Under the pieces are notes generated by a model that was given only the letters and a program-made list of their open reading frames with translations, made no database searches and had not been told where the DNA came from. From Pseudomonas sp. FP198 (GTDB lineage Bacteria > Pseudomonadota > Gammaproteobacteria > Pseudomonadales > Pseudomonadaceae), in contig NZ_CP117452.1 of NCBI RefSeq assembly GCF_030687895.1, positions 4,704,501 through 4,768,500 of the forward strand: a DNA stretch of 64,000 nt, read 5' to 3'. Below, one piece after another: positions 44,569 to 57,141 of the stretch (positions within the stretch are counted from its first letter, which is position 1; every line of letters begins with the position of its first letter). The position numbers and the translations under genes were made by a program.

Positions 44569-44743
44569 GTCAAAGGCAGCCGGATACAGACGCTTTCGGG
44601 GGCTCGGGTCGGCGCGTCCGTTCAACGGCAAGATTCTTCGGCGGCGGCGCATCACTTCCACTGCAGAAAGAGGTGCGCAATTATGCAGATTGCGAAAAAT
44701 ATTTCAACCTGCTTTTATGATTGTTTTGCCCAAGGAGTCCCCG

Positions 44744-45784
44744 ATGGACTATCGCAAGCTAGGCCGTACCGATCTGAATGTCAGCGCCTTGTGCCTCGGA
44801 ACCATGACCTGGGGCGAGCAGAACAGCGAGGCAGAGGCGTTCGCCCAGATTGAACGCGCCAAGGGTGCCGGGATCAATTTCCTCGACACCGCCGAGATGT
44901 ACCCCGTGCCGCCGAAGGCCGAGACCTACGCCACCACCGAGCGTTATATCGGCAGTTATTTCAAGAGCCGTGGCGACCGCGCCGACTGGATCCTGGCCAG
45001 CAAGATCGCCGGCCCGGGCAATACCATCGACTATATCCGCGACAAGAATCTCAAGCACAACCGCCGCCACATCGTCGAAGCGCTGGACGCCAGCCTCAAG
45101 CGCCTGCAGACCGACTGGATCGACCTGTACCAACTGCACTGGCCGGAGCGCAGCACCAATTTCTTTGGCCAATTGGGCTACACGCACAAGGCCGACGAGG
45201 ATTTCACACCTCTGGAGGAAACCCTCGAAGCCCTGGACGAACAGGTCCGTGCCGGCAAGATCCGCCATATAGGCCTGTCCAACGAGACGCCGTGGGGCAC
45301 CATGAAATTCCTCGCCCTGGCCGAAGCCCGCGGTTGGCCTCGCGCGGTGTCGATCCAGAACCCGTACAACCTGCTCAACCGCAGCTTCGAAATCGGCTTG
45401 GCGGAAATCGCCATTCGCGAGCAATGCGGCCTGCTGGCCTATTCGCCCCTGGCGTTCGGTTTCCTGTCGGGCAAATACGAAAACGGCGCACGGCCCGCCA
45501 AGGGCCGCCTGACGCTGTACAGCCGCTTCATGCGTTACTTCAACCCGCAATCGGAAGCCGCCTGCAGCCGCTATGTGGCACTGGCCCGCGAACACGGCCT
45601 GGACCCGGCGCAGATGGCCCTGGCATTTGTCACCCAGCAGCCGTTCGTGACCAGCAACATCATCGGCGCCACCACGCTGGAGCAACTGGACAGCAACATC
45701 GCCAGCTTCGACCTGAAGCTGTCGGATGAGGTGCTGGCGGGAATCGAGGCGATTCACAAGGACCAGCCGAATCCGGCGCCTTGA
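44744..45784 (+). CDS. NADP(H)-dependent aldo/keto reductase, Tas-like
   Basis: A 346-residue aldo/keto reductase close to E. coli Tas in length and motifs. The N-terminal strand is MDYRKLGRTDLNVSALCLGTMTWG. The catalytic Asp and Tyr occur in NFLDTAEMYPVPPKAET and the Lys in ILASKIAGPG. The conserved His region is QLHWPERSTNFFGQ. I start at ATG 44744 behind AAGGAG rather than at 44690. Tas can complement starvation-tyrosine auxotrophy in E. coli, but its natural substrate is unclear. It is a single gene, divergent from rplM. Confidence 0.9.
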   Translation: MDYRKLGRTDLNVSALCLGTMTWGEQNSEAEAFAQIERAKGAGINFLDTAEMYPVPPKAETYATTERYIGSYFKSRGDRADWILASKIAGPGNTIDYIRDKNLKHNRRHIVEALDASLKRLQTDWIDLYQLHWPERSTNFFGQLGYTHKADEDFTPLEETLEALDEQVRAGKIRHIGLSNETPWGTMKFLALAEARGWPRAVSIQNPYNLLNRSFEIGLAEIAIREQCGLLAYSPLAFGFLSGKYENGARPAKGRLTLYSRFMRYFNPQSEAACSRYVALAREHGLDPAQMALAFVTQQPFVTSNIIGATTLEQLDSNIASFDLKLSDEVLAGIEAIHKDQPNPAP

Positions 45785-45800
45785 TTGATTCATAGGCCCC

Positions 45801-45893
45801 TTCGCGAGCAGGCTCGCTCCCACACTGGCTTTTTGTCTGACCGCCACGTTGCGATCGACACAAAACCCATGTGGGAGCGAGCCTGCTCGCGAA
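45801..45893. repeat. REP pair (REPIN-like), GCGAGCAGGCTCGC family
   Basis: Inverted 24-base REPs at 45801-45824 and 45870-45893 lie between the converging aldo/keto reductase and acyl-CoA dehydrogenase genes. Here the copies face outward, opposite to the pair at 53-141. Confidence 0.85.
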
Positions 45894-45918
45894 AGCGATC
45901 TGACATCCAGCGCAATAA

Positions 45919-47055
45919 TCAAAGCGACCGCGCAATAATCTCCTTCATGATTTCGTTGGTCCCCGCATAGATTCGCTGCACCCGCGCATCAGCCCACGCC
46001 CGGGCGATCGGATATTCCCACATGAAACCGTAGCCGCCATGCAGCTGCACGCATTCATCGAGCACCTTGCATTGCAGGTCGGTGCCCCAGTACTTGGCCA
46101 TCGCCGCCGTCGGTACATCGAGCTTGCCCTGCAGATGAAGCTCCAGGCAGCGGTCGACGAAGACCCGGCCGATCTGGATCTCGGTGGCCATTTCCGCCAG
46201 TTTGAAGCGGGTGTTCTGGAAATCCGCGATGGATTTGCCGAACGCCTTGCGGTCACGGGTGTAATCCAGCGTCCATTGCAGCGCCGCTTCGGCCGAGGCC
46301 AGGCCACCGATGGCGACGGTCAGGCGCTCCTGAGGCAGTTCCTGCATCAGGTAGGCGAAGCCCATTCCGGCCTGGCCCAGCAGATTTTCCTTCGGCACGC
46401 GGACATCCTGGAAGAACAGCTCCGACGTGTCCTGGGCCTTCATTCCGACTTTCTCCAGGCGCTTGCCCTTTTCAAAGCCCGGCGTGCCCGCCTCCACCAG
46501 GAACAGACTGGTGCCTTTGGCCCCCGCCTTCGGGTCGGTCTTGGCGACGACAATGACCAGGTCGGCCAGGAAGCCATTGGTAATGAAGGTCTTGGAACCG
46601 TTGATCACGTATTCATCGCCGTCGAGCACTGCGGTGGTCTTCACGCCTTGCAGGTCGGAACCGGCACCCGGCTCGGTCATGGCGATGGCCGTGACCATTT
46701 CGCCGGACACCAGTTTCGGCAGGTATTTGTGCTTCAACGCTTCGCTGCCGTAATGGAGGATGTACGGCGCGACGATATCGGAGTGCAACGAGAAACCGAT
46801 CCCGGTCAGCCCCAGGCGGCCGATTTCCTCGATCACCACCGTGCTGTAGAGAAAATCCGCCTCCAGTCCGCCGTAGGCCTCCGGCAGGTGCGAGCACAGC
46901 ATCCCCGCCTCCCCGGCTTTGTTCCAGAGCTGGCGATCGATGTGCCCCTGTTTTTCCCACTGGCTGTGGTACGGCACGGCTTCTTTCTCAAGGAAGGATC
47001 GTACGGTGTCGCGAAACAACTCGTGCTCGGGGCTGAACAGGGCTCTGGGGATCAT
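45919..47055 (-). CDS. Acyl-CoA dehydrogenase (long-chain/isovaleryl type)
   Basis: A 378-residue FAD enzyme oxidising an acyl-CoA to the 2-enoyl-CoA. The substrate/FAD motifs are AMTEPGAGSDLQG, VINGSKTFITNG, RKAFGKSIADFQ and CVQLHGGYGFMWEYPIARAW. The usual medium-chain catalytic Glu is Ala here (IYAGTNEIM). The likely base is instead the Glu in PQERLTVA, the arrangement of isovaleryl-CoA and long-chain dehydrogenases. I start at ATG 47055 (MIPRALFSPEHELFRDT); longer frames cross the divergent promoter. It is divergent from a GlxA-type regulator. The substrate is unknown. Confidence 0.88.
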   Translation of the reverse strand: MIPRALFSPEHELFRDTVRSFLEKEAVPYHSQWEKQGHIDRQLWNKAGEAGMLCSHLPEAYGGLEADFLYSTVVIEEIGRLGLTGIGFSLHSDIVAPYILHYGSEALKHKYLPKLVSGEMVTAIAMTEPGAGSDLQGVKTTAVLDGDEYVINGSKTFITNGFLADLVIVVAKTDPKAGAKGTSLFLVEAGTPGFEKGKRLEKVGMKAQDTSELFFQDVRVPKENLLGQAGMGFAYLMQELPQERLTVAIGGLASAEAALQWTLDYTRDRKAFGKSIADFQNTRFKLAEMATEIQIGRVFVDRCLELHLQGKLDVPTAAMAKYWGTDLQCKVLDECVQLHGGYGFMWEYPIARAWADARVQRIYAGTNEIMKEIIARSL

Positions 47056-47200
47056 GGCGCACCTTTGGTTATTGTTGGACGTGGTTATCCGACAGAGCCT
47101 AAGCCTGCGGCGTACGACAGGACACTGGACACATCCGACAAAAAATAAGACGATCCAGCCGTCTGGTGACCACTTTCCCCTATAAAAATAAAGATGAGTT

Positions 47201-48196
47201 ATGTCCATGCACGCCTCCACGCCCTTGCGGCGCGTCAGCATCCTGGCAGTCGACCGGGTTTTCGCTTCCACCCTCATGCAAGCCAAGGATTTTTTCCACC
47301 TGGCCAGCCTGCGCTACGGCAAACAGCTTGGCCACGGCCTGACCCCAGCGTTCGAAACCCGGCTGGTCAGCCCTGACGGCAAGCCAGTCAACAGCTTCAG
47401 CGATGTGCTCATGCCGGTGGACGGTGGCCTCGAAAATACCGATGTGATCATCCTGCCGGCGTTCTGGGATGACTTCGCCACGCTCTGCCAACGTTATCCC
47501 CAGGTCCTGCCCTGGCTGCGCGAACAACACGCTCGCGGCGCGGTGCTCTGCGGCGAAGCCACCGGAGTATTCTGGCTGGCCGAGGCCGGGCTGCTCGATG
47601 GCAAGGAAGCCACCACCTACTGGCGCTTCTTCAATGCCTTCAAGGAGCGTTTCCCTCAGGTGCACCTGAACCAGGACAAGCACCTGACCGACGCTGACAA
47701 CCTGTTCTGCGCCGGCGGCACCACCTCGGCCTGCGACCTTTACATCTACTTGATCGAACGCTTCTGCGGCGCCAACGTCGCCCAGGCCGTGGCGCGGGAC
47801 ATCCTGTATGAAGTGCAACGCAACTATTCGCCGGGACGCATCGGCTTTGGCGGGCAGAAACTGCATCAGGACGTGATCATCCTGCAGATCCAGCAATGGC
47901 TGGAGGAGCATTTCGCCGACAAGTTCCGCTTCGAGGACGTCGCCCGCGAGCACGGCATGAGCATCCGCAATTTCATGCGCCGCTTCCAGACCGCCACCGG
48001 CGACAAGCCCTTGCACTACCTGCAACGCCTGCGGATAGAAACCGCCAAGGGCCTGCTGTCCGGCAGCCGCAAGAGCATCAAGACGATCAGTTACGAAGTC
48101 GGCTACGACGACGCGAGCTTTTTCGCACGACTGTTCCGGCAACACACCGACCTGTCTCCGAACCAGTACCGGCAGCAATTCCAGCAGGCGGCGTGA
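47201..48196 (+). CDS. GlxA/AraC-family regulator with DJ-1/PfpI-like domain
   Basis: A 331-residue regulator. The N-terminal DJ-1/PfpI-like domain (about 10-190) has the elbow region VLCGEATGVFWLAEAGLLDG. The C-terminal AraC domain (about 225-325) has two helix-turn-helix motifs: RFEDVAREHGMSIRNFMRRF, then IKTISYEVGYDDASFFARLFR. It is divergent from the acyl-CoA dehydrogenase, separated by 145 bases, and probably controls it. Relatives often sense amino-acid-derived or quaternary-amine metabolites. A second in-frame ATG six bases later (MHASTPLRR) is an equal candidate start. Confidence 0.85.
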   Translation: MSMHASTPLRRVSILAVDRVFASTLMQAKDFFHLASLRYGKQLGHGLTPAFETRLVSPDGKPVNSFSDVLMPVDGGLENTDVIILPAFWDDFATLCQRYPQVLPWLREQHARGAVLCGEATGVFWLAEAGLLDGKEATTYWRFFNAFKERFPQVHLNQDKHLTDADNLFCAGGTTSACDLYIYLIERFCGANVAQAVARDILYEVQRNYSPGRIGFGGQKLHQDVIILQIQQWLEEHFADKFRFEDVAREHGMSIRNFMRRFQTATGDKPLHYLQRLRIETAKGLLSGSRKSIKTISYEVGYDDASFFARLFRQHTDLSPNQYRQQFQQAA

Positions 48197-48221
48197 GCCC
48201 GACGCTGAACGCTAATTCCAT

Positions 48222-48311
48222 TGTGGGAGCGAGCCTGCTCGCGAAGACGATGTGTCAGCTTGCATGGTTGCTGAACATGCTCGCCTCTTCGCGAGCAGGC
48301 TCGCTTCTACC
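48222..48311. repeat. REP pair, one copy degenerate
   Basis: A full REP at 48222-48245 faces an inverted copy at 48288-48311 whose outer end has changed (TCGCTTCTAC in place of TCGCTCCCAC). It is in the gap between the GlxA-like regulator and the nitrilase gene. Confidence 0.8.
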
Positions 48312-48447
48312 GTTGATTTCCGCTCATTCATCTTGGGAGATGCCCTACAAACCACACGGAAACGGCTGACTTACGCTCCACGCCCGTTTCGCCTCTTATA
48401 AACACGCCATTAAACAGCGTGAATAAAAATAAAAAGAGGTTTCTTGA

Positions 48448-49335
48448 ATGAGCGAGCCAACCAGTCCTGTCCGCGTAGCGGTTGTGCAATTCGACCCTCA
48501 GGTCGGCGTAAGGAATCATGAGCAGAACCTGCATCACAGCCTTGCGCTGGCGTTGGAGGCGGTAAACGGCGGAGCGAATCTCATCGTTCTGCCCGAGCTG
48601 TCAAATACCGGCTATTTCTTCAGCAACCGACAGGATGCGTTCGAACACTCCGAATTGGTCCCCAACGGGCCAAGCGTGCAAGCCTGGAAGGACTTCGCGC
48701 GCCAGCACAAGATTTACCTGGTGGCCGGCTTGACGGAGCGCGAGGGCATGCGGCTTTTCAACACCGGTGTTCTGTTGGGGCCAGACGGTTTTATTGGCAA
48801 GTACCGAAAAGCCCATTTGTGGAACCTGGAGAAACTCTGGTTCACACCAGGAGACCTGGGTTTTCCAGTGTTCGAAACCCCGATAGGCCGCATCGGAATG
48901 CTGATCTGCTGGGACATCTGGTTTCCGGAAGTGCCGCGAATCCTGACCCAGCAAGGCGCGGACATCATCTGCAGCCTGAACAACTGGGTCTGGACGCCCC
49001 CGCCGCTGTTTGATGACGCAGGCAAGTGCATGGCGTCATACCTGACCATGACGGCGGCACACGTCAATAACGTGTTCATTGCAGCGGCAAGCCGCATCGG
49101 CGAAGAACGCGGTGCCCGCTATCTGGGCTGTTCTCTGATCGCCGGCACCAACGGTTGGCCGATTGGCGCGGTGGCCTCCGCCGACCAGCAGGAAGTGCTG
49201 TTCGCCGACATCGACCTGACCAGTTCCCGTAGCGCCGCCATCTGGAACAACCTGAACGACCTGCACCGTGATCGGCGTTCGGATCTCTACGATCCGATGC
49301 TTGGTTATACCCAGCACCCTCTCCTGCCGCGCTGA
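48448..49335 (+). CDS. Nitrilase-superfamily carbon-nitrogen hydrolase
   Basis: A 295-residue hydrolase with the Glu-Lys-Cys triad: Glu50 in VLPELSNTG, Lys121 in KYRKAHLWN and Cys154 in LICWDIWFPE. The fold and length suit an amidase, carbamoylase or omega-amidase branch more than a true nitrilase; I cannot name the substrate. A good AAAGAGG site lies upstream. It heads an operon with a duplicated membrane protein (13 bases later) and an asparaginase. It has no signal peptide, so it acts in the cytosol, perhaps on an amide brought in by the membrane protein. Confidence 0.85.
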   Translation: MSEPTSPVRVAVVQFDPQVGVRNHEQNLHHSLALALEAVNGGANLIVLPELSNTGYFFSNRQDAFEHSELVPNGPSVQAWKDFARQHKIYLVAGLTEREGMRLFNTGVLLGPDGFIGKYRKAHLWNLEKLWFTPGDLGFPVFETPIGRIGMLICWDIWFPEVPRILTQQGADIICSLNNWVWTPPPLFDDAGKCMASYLTMTAAHVNNVFIAAASRIGEERGARYLGCSLIAGTNGWPIGAVASADQQEVLFADIDLTSSRSAAIWNNLNDLHRDRRSDLYDPMLGYTQHPLLPR

Positions 49336-49348
49336 GGGGGCTTATCCT

Positions 49349-50542
49349 ATGGAATCCATAAACGAAAAACGCCAACGCCGGTATACCGCTCGGTCATCGC
49401 TGGATCTTGCAGTGATCCTGTTGATGCTCGGCGCGCTGTCGCTGATCTGGCTTTCTTTCATGAGCCTCGCCTCCTGGCCCGACTACGGCCACATGGTGTC
49501 GAATTTGCCACAGCCAACCTCATGGCTACGCTGGGTGGTGGGAGACATCAGCGAAGTCGCCTTTTATAAGCATGAATTTGCGTCCATCGGACTGCTGGCG
49601 GGTGCCTACCTGGCATACCGGGCCAATGAAACGGGAAAGGCCTGGCAAGGATTTCCAATCTGCTACGGCAGCGGCCTGTGGCCGTGGGTCGTCGCCAGCT
49701 CGCTGCTTGGGCTCTTGCTCAGCAACCTGTTATGGGGCTGGACCGTGACGGCCACCGCCTGGCAACCGACCTTTGCCGCATTTGTTTCATTGCCGGCGGC
49801 GATGGTGCTGATGTTTGGCGGTGGCTGGAAAGTGGCGATCAACGGCGCAGTCATGGGTGCACTGCTGGTTACGCCGGCGTGCTTGTTGCTGGTCAACTAC
49901 GTCTGCAATCCTCTGGGTTTGCCGGCAGTGATCGGCAACGTCTCGGGGATGGCTGTCGCCAGCGTCATGGCATTTCTGCTCTGCCGTTATGTGCCAAGCC
50001 TGGTGAGTTCGCAGGCGACCATGGAACCGTCCGATACGCCATCAAGGCCCACGCCCAGCCGTGCACCCGACTACGGTGTCGTCTGGAGCTTGCGCCGAGT
50101 CCTGGCGGATTTTTCCGAAGCGCCATTCTTCGGCAATGAATGGGCGAGCCTTGGACTGATATCGGGCGCCTTGCTGGCTTATGCCTTGAACCCGATGAGC
50201 CCGGTCTACGGCTCGGGCTTGCTGCCGCAACTGATCGCTGCACAAGCGTTGACCTCGGCCTTGGGCGTGATGATCTGGCGTCGACAGTGGCGGTTACGGG
50301 GATGGTATCCCACCTATATCCCGCTGGTATCGGTCGTGCCTGCCGCGGTTCTGACCTACGGCGGCAGTTGGCCGGTGATTGTCTCCAGCGCCTTGCTGGG
50401 CGCACTTGTGGCGCCACCGCTGGCGTGTGCGATCGCCAAGAGACTGCCCACTGACATGCACGGTTTCATTGCGAATGTCCTGTCCATGGCCATCAGTACC
50501 TTGCTCATCATTCCGGTCATCGGTCACCTGATAGCCAACTGA
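49349..50542 (+). CDS. Uncharacterised membrane protein with duplicated halves
   Basis: A 397-residue polytopic membrane protein that I do not recognise. It has about ten hydrophobic segments in two similar halves of roughly 165 residues. Each half has an acidic amphipathic lead-in (GDISEVAFYKHEFASIGLLAG; ADFSEAPFFGNEWASLGLISG) and a YGSGLWP or YGSGLLP turn. Each then has a long hydrophobic run with MFGGGWKVAINGAVMGALL or TYGGSWPVIVSSALLGAL. The layout suggests a transporter or channel. Position between two amide hydrolases suggests uptake of their substrate. I chose ATG 49349 (MESINEKRQRRYTAR), 13 bases after the nitrilase stop. Confidence 0.75.
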   Translation: MESINEKRQRRYTARSSLDLAVILLMLGALSLIWLSFMSLASWPDYGHMVSNLPQPTSWLRWVVGDISEVAFYKHEFASIGLLAGAYLAYRANETGKAWQGFPICYGSGLWPWVVASSLLGLLLSNLLWGWTVTATAWQPTFAAFVSLPAAMVLMFGGGWKVAINGAVMGALLVTPACLLLVNYVCNPLGLPAVIGNVSGMAVASVMAFLLCRYVPSLVSSQATMEPSDTPSRPTPSRAPDYGVVWSLRRVLADFSEAPFFGNEWASLGLISGALLAYALNPMSPVYGSGLLPQLIAAQALTSALGVMIWRRQWRLRGWYPTYIPLVSVVPAAVLTYGGSWPVIVSSALLGALVAPPLACAIAKRLPTDMHGFIANVLSMAISTLLIIPVIGHLIAN

Positions 50543-50616
50543 GCCGTCCACTTCCACGGCTGCATCTCGACCGGTAGGCGGTTGCAGCCATTTATTGCAA
50601 ACAAGCGAGGTATCAC

Positions 50617-51603
50617 ATGGACTTGCCCAACCTGAGCATCGCTTCACTCGGCGGCACCGTGAGCATGCAGGCCCGGGTCTTCGGAGAAGGAGTGGTCCCG
50701 GCCGTCAGCGGCGCAACCCTGCTGGCTTCGGTACCGGAGTTGAGAACCCTGGCCCGCGTCACCGTCGAAACACTTCGGCTGTTGCCCAGCGCCTCATTGA
50801 GCTTCGAGCATTTATTGAGCGCGCTGCGCTGGGCGAACGCTCAGATCGAGCAAGGTGCGGTGGCGGTTGTCCTCACTCAGGGCACCGACACGCTGGAGGA
50901 ATCCGCCGCATTTTTCGATCTCCTGTGGGACCACGACGAACCCCTGGTGCTTACTGGAGCGATGCGTTCCGCAGCCCAGACAGGCGCCGACGGACCGGGC
51001 AATCTGCTGGATGCCTGCCAGGTCGGCTTGGCCGAGAACAGCTGGCGACGTGGCGTTCAGGTGGTCATGAACGGGCAGGTTCATTCGGCGCAGGCGGTTC
51101 GCAAAACCGATTCGATGGCACTGCAGGCTTTTTCTTCGCCCGCCGTAGGCCCGGCAGGCTTGTTACTGGAGGGTGAGGTTCACTATTTCCACCCTCCACG
51201 CGAACGTCACATCTTGCCGTTGCCACAGCGCTCGACGCACAAGGTTGCGCTGTTACAAGCGTCGCTGTCTGCCGACAGCCTGCTGCTGGAGAACGTTCTC
51301 GCGCTGGGTTACGACGGGCTGGTGATCGCCGGTTTCGGTGCTGGACACGTTTCTGAAACCTGGGCTGAAAAAATTGACGCCATTGCCAGAAAAATCCCGG
51401 TGATTGTTGCGACCCGCTGCGACTCCGGCTCAACGGCTCGCTCGACTTACGGCTTCAAGGGCGGCGAGATGGATCTGGTTAAAAGAGGCGCTTCGATGGC
51501 CGGTTTTGTCTGCCCACGCAAATCGAGGATCCTCTTGTGGCTGCTGATCGGTTGCCAGCGACAAGATGACTTGGCTCGCTATCTGAGGCTTCTGCAGTAT
51601 TGA
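50617..51603 (+). CDS. L-asparaginase family protein
   Basis: A 328-residue asparaginase/glutaminase-fold amidohydrolase. The first catalytic Thr is Thr14 in ASLGGTVSM. The second set is TQGTDTLEESA (Thr89, Asp90), and the conserved block VLTGAMRSAAQTGADGPGNLLDA follows. The C-terminal domain has VIAGFGAGHVSE. There is no signal peptide, unlike periplasmic type II enzymes, so it should be cytosolic. It hydrolyses Asn or a related amide. It is the third gene after the nitrilase and membrane protein, with a 74-base gap that could hold a separate signal. GGTVS replaces the usual GGTI(A/S). Confidence 0.85.
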   Translation: MDLPNLSIASLGGTVSMQARVFGEGVVPAVSGATLLASVPELRTLARVTVETLRLLPSASLSFEHLLSALRWANAQIEQGAVAVVLTQGTDTLEESAAFFDLLWDHDEPLVLTGAMRSAAQTGADGPGNLLDACQVGLAENSWRRGVQVVMNGQVHSAQAVRKTDSMALQAFSSPAVGPAGLLLEGEVHYFHPPRERHILPLPQRSTHKVALLQASLSADSLLLENVLALGYDGLVIAGFGAGHVSETWAEKIDAIARKIPVIVATRCDSGSTARSTYGFKGGEMDLVKRGASMAGFVCPRKSRILLWLLIGCQRQDDLARYLRLLQY

Positions 51604-51629
51604 GGGTTGCCTGGACCGGATCGGCGGGG

Positions 51630-51673
51630 GGCTGCTGCGCAGCCCAGCGGGAGCAAGCTCCCTCGCCACGGGT
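51630..51673. repeat. REP element, GGGAGCAAGCTCCC family
   Basis: A GGGCTGCTGCGCAGCCC hairpin and GCGGGAGCAAGCTCCCTCGCC form one unit between the converging asparaginase and zapE stops. It is the same family as the copies at 3413-3531 and 59276-59390. Confidence 0.75.
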
Positions 51674-51694
51674 TTTGTGCTGCGGTTGTATTAC

Positions 51695-52789
51695 CTACGG
51701 TTTATGCGCCCGCGACAGGAATTCGTGGGATTGCATCTCCAGCAGGCGGCTGAGGGTCCGCTGGAATTCGAAGTTCAGGCGACCGCCGGTGTAGAGGTCC
51801 TTGAGCTCGACTTCAGCCGAGATGATCAGCTTCACGTTGCGGTCGTAGAATTCGTCGACCATGTTGATGAAACGGCGGGCGATGTCATCGGTGGTGACGC
51901 TCATCTGCTCGACGCCGCTGAGCAGCACGGCGTGGAAGATCTTGCCCAACTCGATGTAGTCGTTCTGGCTGCGGGGGCCGTCGCACAACTCACGGAAGTC
52001 GAACCAGGCCACGTCGTCGCAGGTGCGGATCGCACGGATTTCGCGGTTTTCGATGATCAGCACATCGTTTTCCACTGCCTGGGTGCATTCCGGCGTCAAG
52101 GCGCGGAAGCTCTTGCGCAGGCTTTCTTCAGCGGCGGCGTCCAGCGGGAAATGGAACAGCTCCGCTTGCTCGAGGTGACGCAGGCGATAGTCCACGCCGC
52201 TGTCGACATTGACGATTTCGGTGTGTTCCTTGATCAGCTTGATCGCCGGCAGGAAGCGCGCCCGCTGCAGACCGTCCTTGTACAGGCCGTCGGGGACGAT
52301 GTTCGAGGTGGCGACCAGGGTCACGCCGTTCTTGAACAGCTCTTCCATCAGCGTGCCAAGGATCATGGCGTCGGTGATGTCGGAAACGAAAAACTCATCG
52401 AAGCAGATCACCCGAGTCTCGGCGGCGAAGCGCTTGGCGATGAGGGTCAGCGGGTTCTTCTCGCCGCCCAGGGTCTTCATTTCTTCGTGCACGCGCTTCA
52501 TGAAGCGGTGAAAGTGCGTCCGGGTCTTTTCCTTGAAAGGCAGCGCTTCGAAGAAGGTGTCCACCAGGTAAGTCTTGCCACGGCCGACGCCACCCCAGAA
52601 GTACAGGCCCTTGACCGGTGTCTGGTCTTTTTTGCCGAACAGCTTGCCCAACAAGCCTGGCTTGTTGTTCGACGCGGCGACCAGGTCGTCGTACAGGCGC
52701 TGCAAATGCCGCACGGCCGTTTCCTGGGCTGCGTCGTGGAAGAATTCCGGGCGTTTCAGATCAGCTTGATATCGTTCTAGGGGCGTCAT
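51695..52789 (-). CDS. zapE: Cell division-associated ATPase ZapE (AFG1-like)
   Basis: ZapE, 364 residues, an AFG1-family P-loop ATPase that in E. coli joins the constricting Z ring. Walker A is GGVGRGKT at 66-73, Walker B is VICFDEFFVSD and the sensor region is TLVATSNIVPDGLY. I start at ATG 52789 (MTPLERYQADLKRPEF) over the Met five residues earlier. It is monocistronic on the minus strand. Confidence 0.93.
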   Translation of the reverse strand: MTPLERYQADLKRPEFFHDAAQETAVRHLQRLYDDLVAASNNKPGLLGKLFGKKDQTPVKGLYFWGGVGRGKTYLVDTFFEALPFKEKTRTHFHRFMKRVHEEMKTLGGEKNPLTLIAKRFAAETRVICFDEFFVSDITDAMILGTLMEELFKNGVTLVATSNIVPDGLYKDGLQRARFLPAIKLIKEHTEIVNVDSGVDYRLRHLEQAELFHFPLDAAAEESLRKSFRALTPECTQAVENDVLIIENREIRAIRTCDDVAWFDFRELCDGPRSQNDYIELGKIFHAVLLSGVEQMSVTTDDIARRFINMVDEFYDRNVKLIISAEVELKDLYTGGRLNFEFQRTLSRLLEMQSHEFLSRAHKP

Positions 52790-52849
52790 ATTCGTTAGCA
52801 AGGCAACAAAAACGGGCCGTCACTGTAGCGATGGCCCAGAGGAATGGCA

Positions 52850-52871
52850 ATCGGCCCTTATTCGGGCCGAT
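52850..52871 (-). terminator. Possible trpS terminator hairpin
   Basis: ATCGGCCC and GGGCCGAT form an eight-pair stem with a six-base loop about 20 bases after the trpS stop. The T-richness that follows is weak, so the call is tentative. Confidence 0.4.
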
Positions 52872-52889
52872 GGTCGGGAACGCCTTCAA

Positions 52890-54245
52890 TCAATCCTGGG
52901 CAGGCGTCAGTGCCACGCGCAACGCATCGATGGCCGCGTCTCGGGCGGTACTGTCGGCAAAGGCCGGGCTGTGGGCCACGCATTCGCCGTCGAGCCAGAC
53001 GCTGAAACTCAGTTCATCGCTGCGCACGTCCAAGGGCTGGCCAGATTGCAATTGCTTGGTCACCTGGCCAGCGGTCTTGCCGTCGGCGAAGTTGTTCGAA
53101 AGCAACAACTGCTCGCCATCGGCAGAAAGCAGGCGGAAGCGGAAACTGCCGTCATCGTCGCGGAAGCTGACGAAGCGCGCAGCCTTGGCCGCTTTCTTTT
53201 TGGTCTGCGTTGCCACTTGCACCTGGCTGACGAAAGACCGCAGGCCAACTGCCTCGCGCAGTTCATCGAGGAACGGCGTTGCTACGGCCCGGGCTTTTTT
53301 CGCGCCCAGTTGCAGGATGTCTTCAAGGTCCGCCGGGCGTTCGATCAACTGGTGGTACCGCTCGCGCGCTTCACCCAACTGGTCGTCGAGCAGTTGGAAC
53401 AGACGATTTTTCGCCTCGCCCCAACCCAGGCCTTGCAGCAGTTCGCTACGGAACGCGGCGCACTGCTCGGCACTGGCGAAGGCCTGGAACAGCGTGAACA
53501 GGTGTGAGTTGTCCGGGTCCTTGGCTTCGCCCGGCGCGCGCGAGTCGGTGACGATCCGCGAGATCGCGTCCTTCATGTCCTTGGCGCTGCTGAACAACGG
53601 AATGGTGTTGTCGTAGCTCTTGGACATCTTGCGGCCATCGAGGCCCGGCAACGTGGCGACGCTTTCCTCGATCAGCGCCTCGGGCATGGTGAAGAACTCC
53701 CTGCCCTTGCCGAACAGGTGGTTGAAGCGCTGACCGATGTCCCGCGCCATTTCCACGTGCTGGATCTGGTCGCGACCGACCGGCACCTTGTGGGCGTTGA
53801 ACATCAGGATGTCGGCCGCCATGAGGATCGGGTAACTGTAGAGGCCCATGGTGACGCCGGCGTCCGGGTCTTCGCCGGTCTCGACGTTCTTGTCCACCGA
53901 CGCCTTGTAGGCGTGGGCACGGTTGAGCAGGCCCTTGGCGGCGACGCAGGTCAGCAGCCAGGTCAGTTCCGGGATTTCAGGGATATCGGACTGCCGATAG
54001 AACGTCACGCGGTCAACATCCAGGCCACCGGCCAGCCAGGTCGCGGCGATTTCCAGGCGCGAGCGCTGGATGCGCAGCGGCTCATCACATTTGATCAGGG
54101 CGTGGTAATCGGCCAGGAAATAGAACGAATCGGCATTGCTTTCGCGGCTGGCGAGGATCGCCGGACGGATGGCGCCGGCGTAGTTGCCCAGGTGCGGGGT
54201 GCCGGTGGTGGTGATGCCGGTCAGGATACGGGTACGAGTCGTCAT
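52890..54245 (-). CDS. trpS: Tryptophanyl-tRNA synthetase with C-terminal extension
   Basis: TrpS, 451 residues, a class I aminoacyl-tRNA synthetase charging tRNA-Trp. The HIGH-type motif is TGTPHLGNY (14-22) and KMSKS is at 206-210. The catalytic and anticodon parts end near residue 340. A Lys-rich linker (TKKKAAKAA) leads to a further domain, 357-447, with two similar units: [20 protein letters not shown], then [19 protein letters not shown]. These look like the YegP/DUF1508 small beta fold. The E. coli enzyme (334 residues) lacks it; pseudomonad TrpS proteins are commonly this long. Confidence 0.94.
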
Positions 54246-54269
54246 GGGTTATCGCTTGTCAGACTGCTG

Positions 54270-54899
54270 TCAATTCGAGAGGCGCGGCAGGAGCAGATCC
54301 TTGAGATCAGTCAGCTTGCCATGAAAAAAGTGTCCGCATTCTGCCACTTTCAGCAGCTCATGGGGGCGCTGGAGCGCGTCGGACCATGTGTAGACAAGTT
54401 GGGGATCGACCACTTCGTCGGTTTCCGGCTGGATCACGGTCAATTCGCCGCTGGTCGGCAGGGGCGCTTGTGCATCCAGGCGCATTACCGCCGGAGCAAC
54501 CATGAACAGGTGCTTGAGCGCCTGGCCTTGGGCTTCCAGGCGTCCGCCAAGGGTGGCGGCGACGAAGCCGCCGAAGGAAAAACCAAACAGGGTCAGGGGC
54601 AGCTGCGGGTATTTTTCCAGCAACCAGGCGGCCGCGGCCTGGGCATCGTCCACTTCGCCGGTGCCCATGTCATGGCTGCCGGCACTGGCGCCGACGCCGC
54701 GATAATTGAAACGCAACGTAACCAGGCCGGCGTCGCGGGCGGTGCGTTGCAGGGTCGAGACCACTTTGTTGAGCATGGTCCCGCCCTGTACCGGGTTGGG
54801 ATGGCAGATCAGCGCCAGGCCACGGGGCGCTTCGCTGTCCAGGTACAAGGCTTCCAGTTGGCCGACCGGGCCATCGATGACTACAGGGGTTTCGCGCAT
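54270..54899 (-). CDS. Alpha/beta hydrolase
   Basis: A 209-residue serine hydrolase of the short alpha/beta family. The oxyanion region is LICHPNPVQGGTMLNKVV and FNYRGVGAS. The nucleophile elbow is GFSFGG, a later Asp is in QPETDEVVDP and the His is in ECGHFFHGKL, so the triad is complete. I start at ATG 54899 (MRETPVVIDG), two residues after another Met. It is 24 bases upstream of trpS on the same strand and may be co-transcribed. The substrate is unknown. Confidence 0.85.
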   Translation of the reverse strand: MRETPVVIDGPVGQLEALYLDSEAPRGLALICHPNPVQGGTMLNKVVSTLQRTARDAGLVTLRFNYRGVGASAGSHDMGTGEVDDAQAAAAWLLEKYPQLPLTLFGFSFGGFVAATLGGRLEAQGQALKHLFMVAPAVMRLDAQAPLPTSGELTVIQPETDEVVDPQLVYTWSDALQRPHELLKVAECGHFFHGKLTDLKDLLLPRLSN

Positions 54900-55047
54900 A
54901 AGCAAGGGAAAGAACTCCGTGACCCCGAATAGGGTCGACTCGTCTAGCTAAAAGTCTGTGCCTGGCATGATTGCGATGTTCTTCGCGGTATACAGCGCAG
55001 GTCCGAGCCGTTAACGTAAAGCAAAGCCGTTTATAGAGGAAGGACTC

Positions 55048-55485
55048 GTGGAACACTCGCTCTTAGTTTGGCTGTTGCCGACTCTTGCCCTGGTTGCCGG
55101 TGTCGCCATTGGTTTCCTGATTGCCCGACTGCTGCCTAACGCGGTGCCCAACAGCACCCAACGTCAGCTCGACGACATCCAGGAACGTTTCGACAGTTAC
55201 CAGAATGAAGTGGTGACCCACTTCAACAGCACCGCTTCCCTGGTGAAAAAGCTCACCCAGAGCTACCAGGAAGTCCAGGATCATCTGTCCGAGGGCGCCA
55301 ACCGCCTGGCCCTGGACGAGCAGACGCGCCAGCGCCTGCTGGCTGCCCTGCAAGCCGACACGGCGCAGACGCCACGGGAGCGCCTGACCCCGCCGAAAGG
55401 GATCCAGGAACCGCCACGGGACTACGCCCCCAAGGCCCCGAATTCCCCGGGGATGCTGGATGAGCATTACGGTTTGAAGAAGTAA
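55048..55485 (+). CDS. YhcB/ZapG-family envelope and division protein
   Basis: A 145-residue protein of the DUF1043 family. A single N-terminal membrane segment (about 7-28) is followed by a cytosolic coiled coil (STQRQLDDIQERFDSYQNEV onward) and a Pro-rich, disordered C-terminus. E. coli YhcB (ZapG) affects cell shape, division and envelope balance. It starts at GTG 55048 behind AGAGGAAGG, and a strong terminator follows. Confidence 0.88.
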   Translation: MEHSLLVWLLPTLALVAGVAIGFLIARLLPNAVPNSTQRQLDDIQERFDSYQNEVVTHFNSTASLVKKLTQSYQEVQDHLSEGANRLALDEQTRQRLLAALQADTAQTPRERLTPPKGIQEPPRDYAPKAPNSPGMLDEHYGLKK

Positions 55486-55500
55486 TTTTCCAGCAACACC

Positions 55501-55541
55501 AAAAAGCCCGCCCGATCGCATGATCGGGCGGGCTTTTTATT
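55501..55541 (+). terminator. Terminator after the yhcB-type gene
   Basis: AAAAAGCCCGCCCGATC and GATCGGGCGGGCTTTTT form a long perfect stem around a four-base loop, with A and T tracts that would allow termination from both sides. Confidence 0.92.
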
Positions 55542-55615
55542 GCCTCAAAAATCTCCCTGTGAAGTTTCCCCTGTGGGAGCGAGGCATGCGCAGATGTGGC
55601 GTCCGCCAAAGCCTG

Positions 55616-55704
55616 TGTGGGAGCGAGCCTGCTCGCGAAGGCGCCGGCATATCCAACATCACCGGCTCAGGCAGACCGCTTTCGCGAGCAGGCTCGCTCC
55701 CACA
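55616..55704. repeat. REP pair with extra partial copy
   Basis: Inverted REPs at 55616-55639 and 55681-55704 lie between the yhcB-type gene and doeD. About 45 bases before, at 55571-55592, a broken copy (CTGTGGGAGCGAGGCATGCG) remains, evidence of an older insertion. Confidence 0.85.
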
Positions 55705-55755
55705 GTCTGGTCGTGGTGAATATCAATCCTGCGCCCACCGACAATCTTTTGTAGT

Positions 55756-57141
55756 TCAAGCCAACACCTCTTCCGCCACCTGGTCGACAGCCCCTTTGGT
55801 GATGTCGACGATCAGGTCGGCGTCTTCGCGGGTCAGGATCAGCGGCGGAGCGAAGCCCAGGATGTCGCCGTGGGGCATGGCGCGGGCGATCATGCCGCGT
55901 TCCAGGCAGGCGGCCGAGACCTTGGGGCCGACCTTGAGTGTCGGGTCGAACGCCGTACGCTGTTCACGATCGGCCATGAACTCCACCGCCGCCAGCATGC
56001 CGTCACCGCGCACTTCGCCCACCAGCGGATGGCCTTCGAGGGTTTCGCGCAAACGACGGTTGAGGTAACCACCGACGTCTTCGGCGTTGGCCATGAGGTT
56101 TTCCCTTTCGAGGATATCCAGGTTGGCCAGGGCCGCCGCCGCGCAGATCGGGTGTCCGGAGTAAGTCCAGCCATGGCCCATCGCACCTTCGACCTGGGAG
56201 GCTTTTTCGATCACGCTCCAGACCTTTTCACCGATGATCACCGCCGACAACGGCGCGTAGGCGCTCGTCAGTCCCTTGGCAGTGGTGATCAGGTCCGGCT
56301 GCATGCCATAGCGCTGGCAGCCCATCTTCGAACCCAGGCGACCAAACGCGCAGACCACCTCATCGGCGATCAACAGCACGTCGTATTTGTTCAGCACGGC
56401 CTGGATCGCAGCCCAATAACCGGCGGGCGGAACGATGATGCCACCGGTGCCCATCACCGGTTCGCCGATGAACGCCGCCACCGTGTCCGGGCCCTCGGCG
56501 AGAATCATTTTCTCCAGCTCATCGGCGCAATAGCGCACGAAGGCCGCTTCGTCCATGCCCACCGGGGCCTTGCGATACCAGTGTGGGCAGACGGTGTGCT
56601 TGACCCCCTCCGCCGGCAGGTCGAAGTGCTGGTGAAACGCCGGGAGCCCGGTCAGGCTGCCGGTCATGATGCCCGAGCCGTGGTAGCCACGGTCCCGTGA
56701 AATGATTTTCTTCTTCCGGGGCCGGCCCAGCACGTTGTTGTAGTAACGCACCAGTTTGATCTGGGTTTCGTTGGCGTCGGAGCCGGACAACCCGTAATAA
56801 ACCTTCTTCATCCCTTCCGGCGCCCAGTCCATGATGCGGCTGGACAGCTCGATGATCGCCTCGCTCGAATGGCCGACGTAGGTGTGGTAGTAGGCCAGTT
56901 CCTTGGCCTGCTTGTAGATGGCGTCAGCCACCTCGGTACGCCCGTAGCCGATGTTCACGCAGTACAGGCCAGCAAAGGCGTCGATGAACTCACGCCCTTC
57001 GTGATCGCGAATGCGGATGCCCGACGCGCTCTTGATGATCCGTCCCTTGAGCGCGCCGCTGGCGTGGTCATGGGCATGGGTCGACGGGTGCATGAAATGC
57101 GCGCGGTCTTGTTCGAACAGCGTGTTGAGTTCTTGGCTCAT
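55756..57141 (-). CDS. doeD: Diaminobutyrate aminotransferase DoeD (class III)
   Basis: A 461-residue class III PLP aminotransferase. Lys289 in TTAKGLTS binds PLP and Asp260 in LLIADEV holds the pyridine nitrogen; GLSGSDANETQIKL is the phosphate region. Family members act on omega-amino acids. In ectoine-degrading clusters the DoeD protein moves the 4-amino group of diaminobutyrate to give aspartate semialdehyde. I start at ATG 57141, overlapping the doeC stop by four bases. The specific name rests on the neighbours (doeC, doeX, doeA, doeB); a beta-alanine or GABA aminotransferase could not be excluded by sequence alone. Confidence 0.82.
   Translation of the reverse strand: MSQELNTLFEQDRAHFMHPSTHAHDHASGALKGRIIKSASGIRIRDHEGREFIDAFAGLYCVNIGYGRTEVADAIYKQAKELAYYHTYVGHSSEAIIELSSRIMDWAPEGMKKVYYGLSGSDANETQIKLVRYYNNVLGRPRKKKIISRDRGYHGSGIMTGSLTGLPAFHQHFDLPAEGVKHTVCPHWYRKAPVGMDEAAFVRYCADELEKMILAEGPDTVAAFIGEPVMGTGGIIVPPAGYWAAIQAVLNKYDVLLIADEVVCAFGRLGSKMGCQRYGMQPDLITTAKGLTSAYAPLSAVIIGEKVWSVIEKASQVEGAMGHGWTYSGHPICAAAALANLDILERENLMANAEDVGGYLNRRLRETLEGHPLVGEVRGDGMLAAVEFMADREQRTAFDPTLKVGPKVSAACLERGMIARAMPHGDILGFAPPLILTREDADLIVDITKGAVDQVAEEVLA

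Follow-up and report, generated by a model that had tools for sequence, protein, structure and literature searches.

What do a nitrilase-family gene, a gene for an unclassified membrane protein and an asparaginase-family gene do together when they stand in line on one strand of the chromosome of Pseudomonas sp. FP198? The three genes lie in a stretch of 64,000 nucleotides, hereafter the window (contig NZ_CP117452.1, positions 4,704,501 to 4,768,500), of a genome that consists of a single contig of 5.86 Mb. We call them nit (48448..49335, + strand, 295 amino acids), mem (49349..50542, + strand, 397 amino acids) and asn (50617..51603, + strand, 328 amino acids). A preliminary description had proposed an amide-salvage operon in which the membrane protein imports an amide or nitrile compound. 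The answer that we favour, with moderate confidence, is that nit, mem and asn make up a unit that scavenges nitrogen from a small amide, in which Mem is the porter and two different cytosolic enzymes hydrolyse C-N bonds.

The first junction is tight, with 13 nucleotides (nt) between nit and mem, followed by 74 nt between mem and asn; the ATG start of mem at 49349 agrees with its relatives. A promoter scan found no promoter-like site, and a terminator scan found 5 candidates against 3.5 expected from shuffles, which is not clearly above. The operon status of the trio therefore rests on the spacing.

Nit matches the nitrilase-superfamily profile PF00795 (E = 3.8e-54; 184 bits against a cut-off of 23.2). 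Its residues E50, K121 and C154, which from knowledge of the superfamily we take to be the catalytic Glu-Lys-Cys triad, are invariant in an alignment of 13 sequences. The nearest solved relatives are 3ivz, 1j31, 6ypa and 7ovg, of which the nearest, 3ivz, is labelled a nitrilase, as is the nearest NCBIfam model. Nit scored below the equivalog cut-offs of archaeal nitrilase (212 bits versus 500), AguB (156 versus 410), AmiE (59 versus 427), formamidase (70 versus 406) and deaminated glutathione amidase (63 versus 355), and the last four identities were rejected on these scores. The FP198 genome holds separate paralogs of the AguB, deaminated-glutathione-amidase-like and DavA-like kinds, the last so called by its position beside a DavB-like gene.

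For Mem, no Pfam family above cut-off, no NCBIfam model and no PHROG was matched, and a sequence search of the PDB gave no significant match (a single one at E = 0.38). Its two halves align with each other (probability 99.3, E = 3e-20, 37% identity), which reveals an internal duplication. When AlphaFold models of Mem were compared with known structures, urea transporters made up all 16 top matches, with the urea-channel fold extending over the whole protein. Mem is therefore a protein of predicted urea-channel fold, though its sequence matches no known family. The two repeats carry SEVAF (residues 68-72) and SEAPF (256-260), and the Glu of each motif is invariant in 130 sequences; Phe72 is replaced by Ser in three Rhodococcus/Prescottella proteins, and Phe260 by Ala in one. 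Both motifs share the register of the PF03253 urea transporter pore motif [Q/E]-[V/I]-x-[F/L] in alignments that are not significant, and the pore motif itself occurs in 10 of the 14 PF03253 members used. A weak positive signal came from the comparison of the mem profile with the 14 urea transporters, which scored 25.1 over 116 columns at a probability of only 2.5. None of 60 column shuffles came up to this value (maximum 23.3), nor did the reversed profile (21.1) or any of nine other single membrane proteins (at most 21.5); the controls consisted of single sequences rather than alignments. Two single urea transporters reached 22.3 and 17.1 against the mem profile, no better than these controls, and PF03253 was absent from the matches of 29 mem members at E up to 10. 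In the phylum sample described below, many PF03253 domains were not stand-alone transporters but the N-terminal part of open frames some 560-810 residues long (L144-L148, L150-L161, L166; L numbers denote loci).

Asn has both asparaginase domains (PF00710, E = 3e-46; PF17763, E = 3e-22) and keeps the catalytic residues T14, T90, D91 and K163 in alignments, in agreement with type II L-asparaginase (TIGR00520). It differs from this enzyme in its score (182 bits against a cut-off of 314), in the lack of a signal peptide and in Ala59, where the aligned L-asparaginase 5k4g has Gln; in asparaginase, the Gln at this position touches the alpha-amino group. The N-terminus reads MDLPNLSIASLGGT, and because the catalytic Thr14 lies too near the start to leave room for a signal peptide, Asn is taken to be cytosolic. 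Taken together, these results bear out what the preliminary description had said of the parts: three co-directional genes with a tight first junction, a nitrilase-fold hydrolase with an intact triad, an unrecognised and duplicated membrane protein, and an asparaginase-like amidase without signal peptide. No known unrelated family accounts for Mem.

Conservation within Pseudomonas ties nit and mem together. Among 149 genomes sampled, mem occurred in 49 and nit in 56, that is, in 49 of 49 mem-positive genomes as against 7 of the 100 others (Fisher p = 3e-32, a value that ignores relatedness). asn was present in 36 genomes, 35 of them mem-positive and the remaining one with a remnant. Gene order was followed in 112 loci of at least 10 kb, made up of the window, 79 of 80 retained loci (the best 80 of 163) and 32 from further searches; some species may be common to the two collections, and 13 shorter loci were not counted. 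In 110 of the 112, nit and mem are no more than 40 nt apart, and asn is present in 83. The nit-mem(-asn) unit was found at several chromosomal places, and in 10 divergent loci mem and asn overlap by 1-4 nt. In L117 and L122, mem is separated from nit yet remains within one cluster; these related loci also carry a subtilase-family gene (PF00082; L117:14878-16023, L122:10525-11763) in or beside the unit at differing positions, which we rejected as a member because it was present in only these two loci.

Searches outside the genus extend this picture. The phylum sample of 398 genomes contained mem in 2, Pseudomonas only, and thus suggested that the trio is confined to Pseudomonas; this was refuted by searches of plasmid records. 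In 79 genomes of one order, a sample without a positive control, mem was not found. Among 72,556 plasmid records, 6 contain mem (E up to 1e-5), from Phyllobacterium, Paenarthrobacter, Rhodococcus (two), Prescottella and Arthrobacter, and in 5 of the 6 it stands beside an amidase-type gene. Plasmid gene labels, here for Rhodococcus and Prescottella, are the records' own unless Pfam is named, and annotation is incomplete. The order is asparaginase-nit-mem in Paenarthrobacter (identity to Pseudomonas 65% for nit, 43% for mem and 31% for the asparaginase) and nit-mem-amidase-tautomerase in Phyllobacterium, whose second amidase belongs to the amidase-signature family PF01425, as confirmed by Pfam there only. 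In Variovorax, an ABC importer of the amide/urea kind is followed by nit-amidase-tautomerase. Plasmids of Paenarthrobacter, Embleya, Phyllobacterium, Variovorax and Streptomyces carry close nit orthologs (62-65%); when the study genes served as tblastn queries, nothing but nit turned up around the copies from Streptomyces and Embleya. A protein like the Variovorax binding protein was found on each side of nit in 5 of 5 further genome regions.

Five of the seven Pseudomonas genomes with nit and without mem lack any unit partner (L171-L175; in L174 nit adjoins a UPF0149 gene), and the other two (L176, L177) read nit-binding protein-permease-permease/ATPase-ATPase-asparaginase-AmiC-like gene. AmiR comes next in L176, where the scan took in all genes; for L177 it covered three genes, and asn was matched. 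We further read 17 plasmid regions with nit relatives (H numbers), 15 of them annotated. By label, the same type of ABC importer stands beside nit in 8 of the 15 (H4, H5, H6, H10, H13, H16, H20, H29). An ANTAR gene is present in 5 of these 8, and 4 of those 5 have in addition a binding-domain gene, the label under which AmiC would be expected. As second hydrolase, 3 regions have a gene labelled urease, 4 an amidase (H16 in fragments, H20, H28, H29) and 1 an asparaginase (H26). On Ancylobacter and Paracoccus plasmids (L186, L192, L197), genes labelled urease come immediately after a nit relative and an amide/urea-type ABC importer, which may point to urea as a product or to an importer used in common.

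The strongest evidence for a porter role of Mem comes from loci in which an ABC importer takes its place around the same hydrolases. An amidase-signature enzyme of another fold in the place of Asn suggests a role in the unit rather than an inherited passenger, and suggests a second amide bond as its target, not asparagine in particular. The expectation of the preliminary description that the genes co-occur beyond close relatives has thus been realised, with the trio or close variants far outside Pseudomonas, in two phyla. Import of amides by Mem is supported by the predicted urea-channel fold and the ABC importers beside nit relatives elsewhere; for import of nitriles there is no evidence. The idea of an amide-salvage unit is supported for a porter with two C-N hydrolases, but must allow for asn as an optional member.

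We propose the following scheme. Mem would act as a urea-channel-like facilitator that passes an amide across the inner membrane; its fold is predicted from models, and its substrate and direction are presumed. Nit, for which family and catalytic residues were observed, would act as a cytosolic Cys-Glu-Lys amidase that converts the amide to an acid and ammonia. Asn would serve as a second cytosolic amidase, which takes another amide group off the product or acts on an accompanying amide. The likely order is entry through Mem, a first ammonia released by Nit and a second by Asn; we infer that the two enzymes cleave one molecule stepwise, and a compound with two amide groups, of the malonamide or succinamide kind, would engage both.

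Several observations weigh against this scheme. With regard to the fold, hhalign of the mem profile against the 14 PF03253 members gave probabilities of only 1.9 and 2.5. The signature of urea transporters, LPxxTxPF, is absent in its strict form from the window Mem, which has LPAVIGNV and LPTDMHGF; a looser LP....P[FY] occurs in 39 of 130 mem members, and LP..[TS].PF in 10 of the 14 PF03253 sequences used. Moreover, 18 of 29 mem members match ThrE (PF06738) weakly, at a best E of 8e-4. A ThrE exporter was rejected, since the match is weak and the window Mem stays below the cut-off (15.1 bits versus 26.3); the fold lists that we saw contained no ThrE, an absence that proves nothing. With regard to the unit, asn is missing from 29 of 112 loci, nit lacks mem in 7 of 56 nit-positive genomes, mem is disrupted in 2 of 125 loci (L132, L133), and in one Pseudomonas genome an additional mem stands without nit. 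This second, stand-alone copy (L104:5967-7148) lies beside a UPF0149 gene, in a genome that also has a complete fmo-nit-mem-asn unit, fmo being the flavoenzyme gene treated below. On the Arthrobacter plasmid, no known amidase was found within 7 kb of mem. In four regions (H9, H14, H15 and H23), nit relatives keep different company, for example M24 peptidases, glutamine amidotransferases and amidohydrolases; they are thus not bound to a single system. Finally, the second hydrolases near nit are not orthologs of one another, which could also mean chance recruitment.

The window trio is a reduced form of a longer unit. At the head of that unit, directly upstream of nit, most relatives have a flavin amino-acid oxidase/monooxygenase-like gene (PF01593, 633-659 amino acids). 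tblastn of this flavoenzyme at E 1e-8 gave no match in the window, and the FP198 genome has no ortholog. Of the 112 loci, 70 have the gene intact, 17 have it broken, partial or as a trace, and 25, among them the window, show no sign of it; at least a trace is thus present in 87, and all four genes stand together with the flavoenzyme intact in 56. It is cut by the contig end in L108, a partial match in L118, and broken or reduced in L012, L023, L026, L029, L046, L063, L069, L085, L113, L119, L124, L126, L129, L131 and L133. As nit and mem are nearly always intact, these breaks may reflect repeated loss of one step of the unit, or in part errors of draft assemblies. A dying unit was seen in genome G421 (L178), which has fragments of the flavoenzyme and asn without mem and nit. 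In the phylum sample the flavoenzyme was found in 2 of 398 genomes, the second match, outside the genus, being weak (E = 2e-21).

The solved structure closest to the flavoenzyme is tryptophan 2-monooxygenase. The FP198 genome also contains a flavoenzyme (588-residue frame) adjoining a nitrilase-family gene (G000:C1:566697-569063; L001, L089, L090), a pair that resembles DavBA (lysine 2-monooxygenase and 5-aminovaleramide amidase). To this DavB-like protein the flavoenzyme shows 26-30% identity in two matched stretches, and on it we mapped the active site of lysine oxidase/monooxygenase, as described in PMC5832979. R121, Y507, W284, W509 and W610 are kept, Phe287 replaces the Asp that selects basic side chains, and Ala570 replaces the cage Phe. 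The exchange of Asp for Phe287 indicates that the substrate is probably a non-basic amino acid. Because the gene adjoins an amidase, an amide is the more natural guess for the product than a keto acid. In most relatives, the flavoenzyme could open an internal source of amide, formed from an amino acid inside the cell; in FP198, which lacks the gene, the amide would arrive from outside or from another reaction.

These features allow a different account, which we regard as unlikely: the flavoenzyme would oxidatively decarboxylate an amino acid to an amide, Nit and Asn would hydrolyse it, Mem would move amide or ammonia outward, and the window would hold a decaying remnant. The kinship with tryptophan 2-monooxygenase, the retained amino-acid-holding residues together with Phe287, and the DavBA-like pair elsewhere in the genome all fit this route, as does the distribution of the flavoenzyme (E 1e-100), whose 38 occurrences in 149 genomes all fall within the 49 with mem. 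However, the gene is absent from the window and broken, partial or a trace in 17 of 112 loci, whereas only 2 of 125 have a shortened nit and only 2 a shortened mem; no plasmid record, mem-bearing ones included, has the flavoenzyme at E up to 1e-30; G421 retains flavoenzyme and asn fragments without mem; and sequence cannot separate oxidase from monooxygenase activity. A bolder extension of the favoured scavenging unit appears to us rather more doubtful than that route: Mem would found a new family of amide channels built on the urea-channel fold, passed between amidase operons in at least two phyla as a substitute for AmiS and ABC importers. In Pseudomonas it would serve a self-contained route, with a flavoprotein 2-monooxygenase that turns a neutral amino acid such as glutamine or asparagine into a diamide, from which Nit and Asn would release two ammonia to leave a dicarboxylate.

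It is very unlikely, in our view, that the genes are mere neighbours by descent, with nit-mem as one unit and asn as another, joined mainly by Pseudomonas ancestry, and with Mem moving something unrelated. The 29 loci without asn, and the low identity of asn (31%) beside that of nit (65%) between Pseudomonas and Paenarthrobacter, would be expected in that case, but the unit occupies several different chromosomal places, Actinobacteria combine the same three families in a different order, and mem adjoins amidase-type genes of different families in all non-Pseudomonas records except that of Arthrobacter. Least probable of all is the use of a nitrile or beta-cyanoalanine, in which Nit, as a nitrilase/nitrile hydratase, would yield asparagine and Asn would convert it to aspartate. 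Such a route would explain the pairing of Nit with an asparaginase-family enzyme, PinA and asparaginase reportedly offer a precedent in P. fluorescens SBW25, the nearest NCBIfam model is a nitrilase, and 3ivz is labelled as one. Against this, Nit reaches 212 of the 500 bits set for that model, its partner elsewhere is labelled amidase or urease (PF01425 being confirmed for Phyllobacterium only), Ala59 of Asn replaces the Gln of the aligned asparaginase, and the predicted fold of Mem and the AmiC/AmiR-like partners of relatives point to amides.

The trio stands between a gene for an AraC-family regulator with a DJ-1/PfpI-like domain (GlxA/FtrA type; 47201..48196, + strand; PF12833, E = 8.5e-22; PF01965, E = 2e-6) and one for an AFG1-like ATPase (labelled zapE here; 51695-52801, opposite strand). 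It is possible that the AraC-family protein regulates the trio. Its ortholog (at least 80% identity) is present in 57 of 80 relative loci (the best 80 of 163) and is gone where the unit occupies other chromosomal places. A GlxA/FtrA-type AraC regulator together with a second gene lies between araC and the flavoenzyme gene in L035 and L046, and between asn and zapE, on the other side of the unit, in L115 (11728-13568); the second gene resembles an MBL-fold hydrolase by eye, and Pfam gave no match in the L115 frame. The intergenic stretch between araC and nit (48197..48447, + strand) is the site of the flavoenzyme gene in most relatives. In the window it contains, at 48220-48312, two inverted stretches (gcgagcctgctcgcgaag / cttcgcgagcaggctcgc), which resemble the dispersed palindromes common in Pseudomonas. 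An Rfam search of 47000-52000 found no RNA element that reached the gathering score.

If the favoured scavenging unit is real, both a fold and a likely role can be given to a membrane family that went unrecognised in every sequence library searched here, and urea-channel-type proteins would serve the use of amides as well as that of urea. Similar amidase operons would then rely on three unrelated kinds of amide importer (ABC, AmiS/UreI and urea-channel-like), which makes for a clean example of porter exchange. A substrate class would also be suggested for unassigned nitrilase-family and asparaginase-family enzymes, in a group in which 49 (mem) and 56 (nit) of 149 Pseudomonas genomes are concerned. 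By title or abstract opening, we found no paper on the nit-mem-asn trio, in a literature search that left most subscription journals outside.

Amide operons with a nitrilase-superfamily amidase such as AmiE, with AmiC/AmiR and with AmiS or an ABC porter, are known. An operon amiE-amiC-amiR-ABC is reported in PMC13209695 from a strain with measured acetamidase activity. With such aliphatic amidase systems (amiEBCRS; amiE-amiC-amiR-ABC; acetamide use) the present unit shares a nitrilase-superfamily amidase beside a dedicated amide porter, and nit relatives keep AmiC/AmiR-like genes and an ABC importer. No AmiC, AmiR, AmiS or ABC gene appeared when the regulator and seven genes in and beside the trio's surroundings (44717-57141) were scanned with Pfam. 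The urea transporter family (PF03253; UT-A/UT-B, dvUT) shares with Mem the predicted whole-protein fold, the two-fold repeat and, in alignments that are not significant, a Glu at the equivalent place; Mem differs in having no Pfam match, no significant profile homology and no LPxxTxPF, and the FP198 genome has a separate true PF03253 member. DavBA and tryptophan 2-monooxygenase/IaaH resemble the longer unit of the relatives, where a nitrilase-superfamily enzyme is directly preceded by a flavoenzyme belonging to the same superfamily, but the relatives' flavoenzyme lacks the Lys-selecting Asp of DavB, and the window has no flavoenzyme beside nit. To our knowledge, neither DavBA nor IaaMH includes a counterpart of mem or asn. 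Collectively, the unit differs from known amide operons in its porter, of predicted urea-channel fold, in its second hydrolase, an amidase of the asparaginase family, and in its neighbouring regulator.

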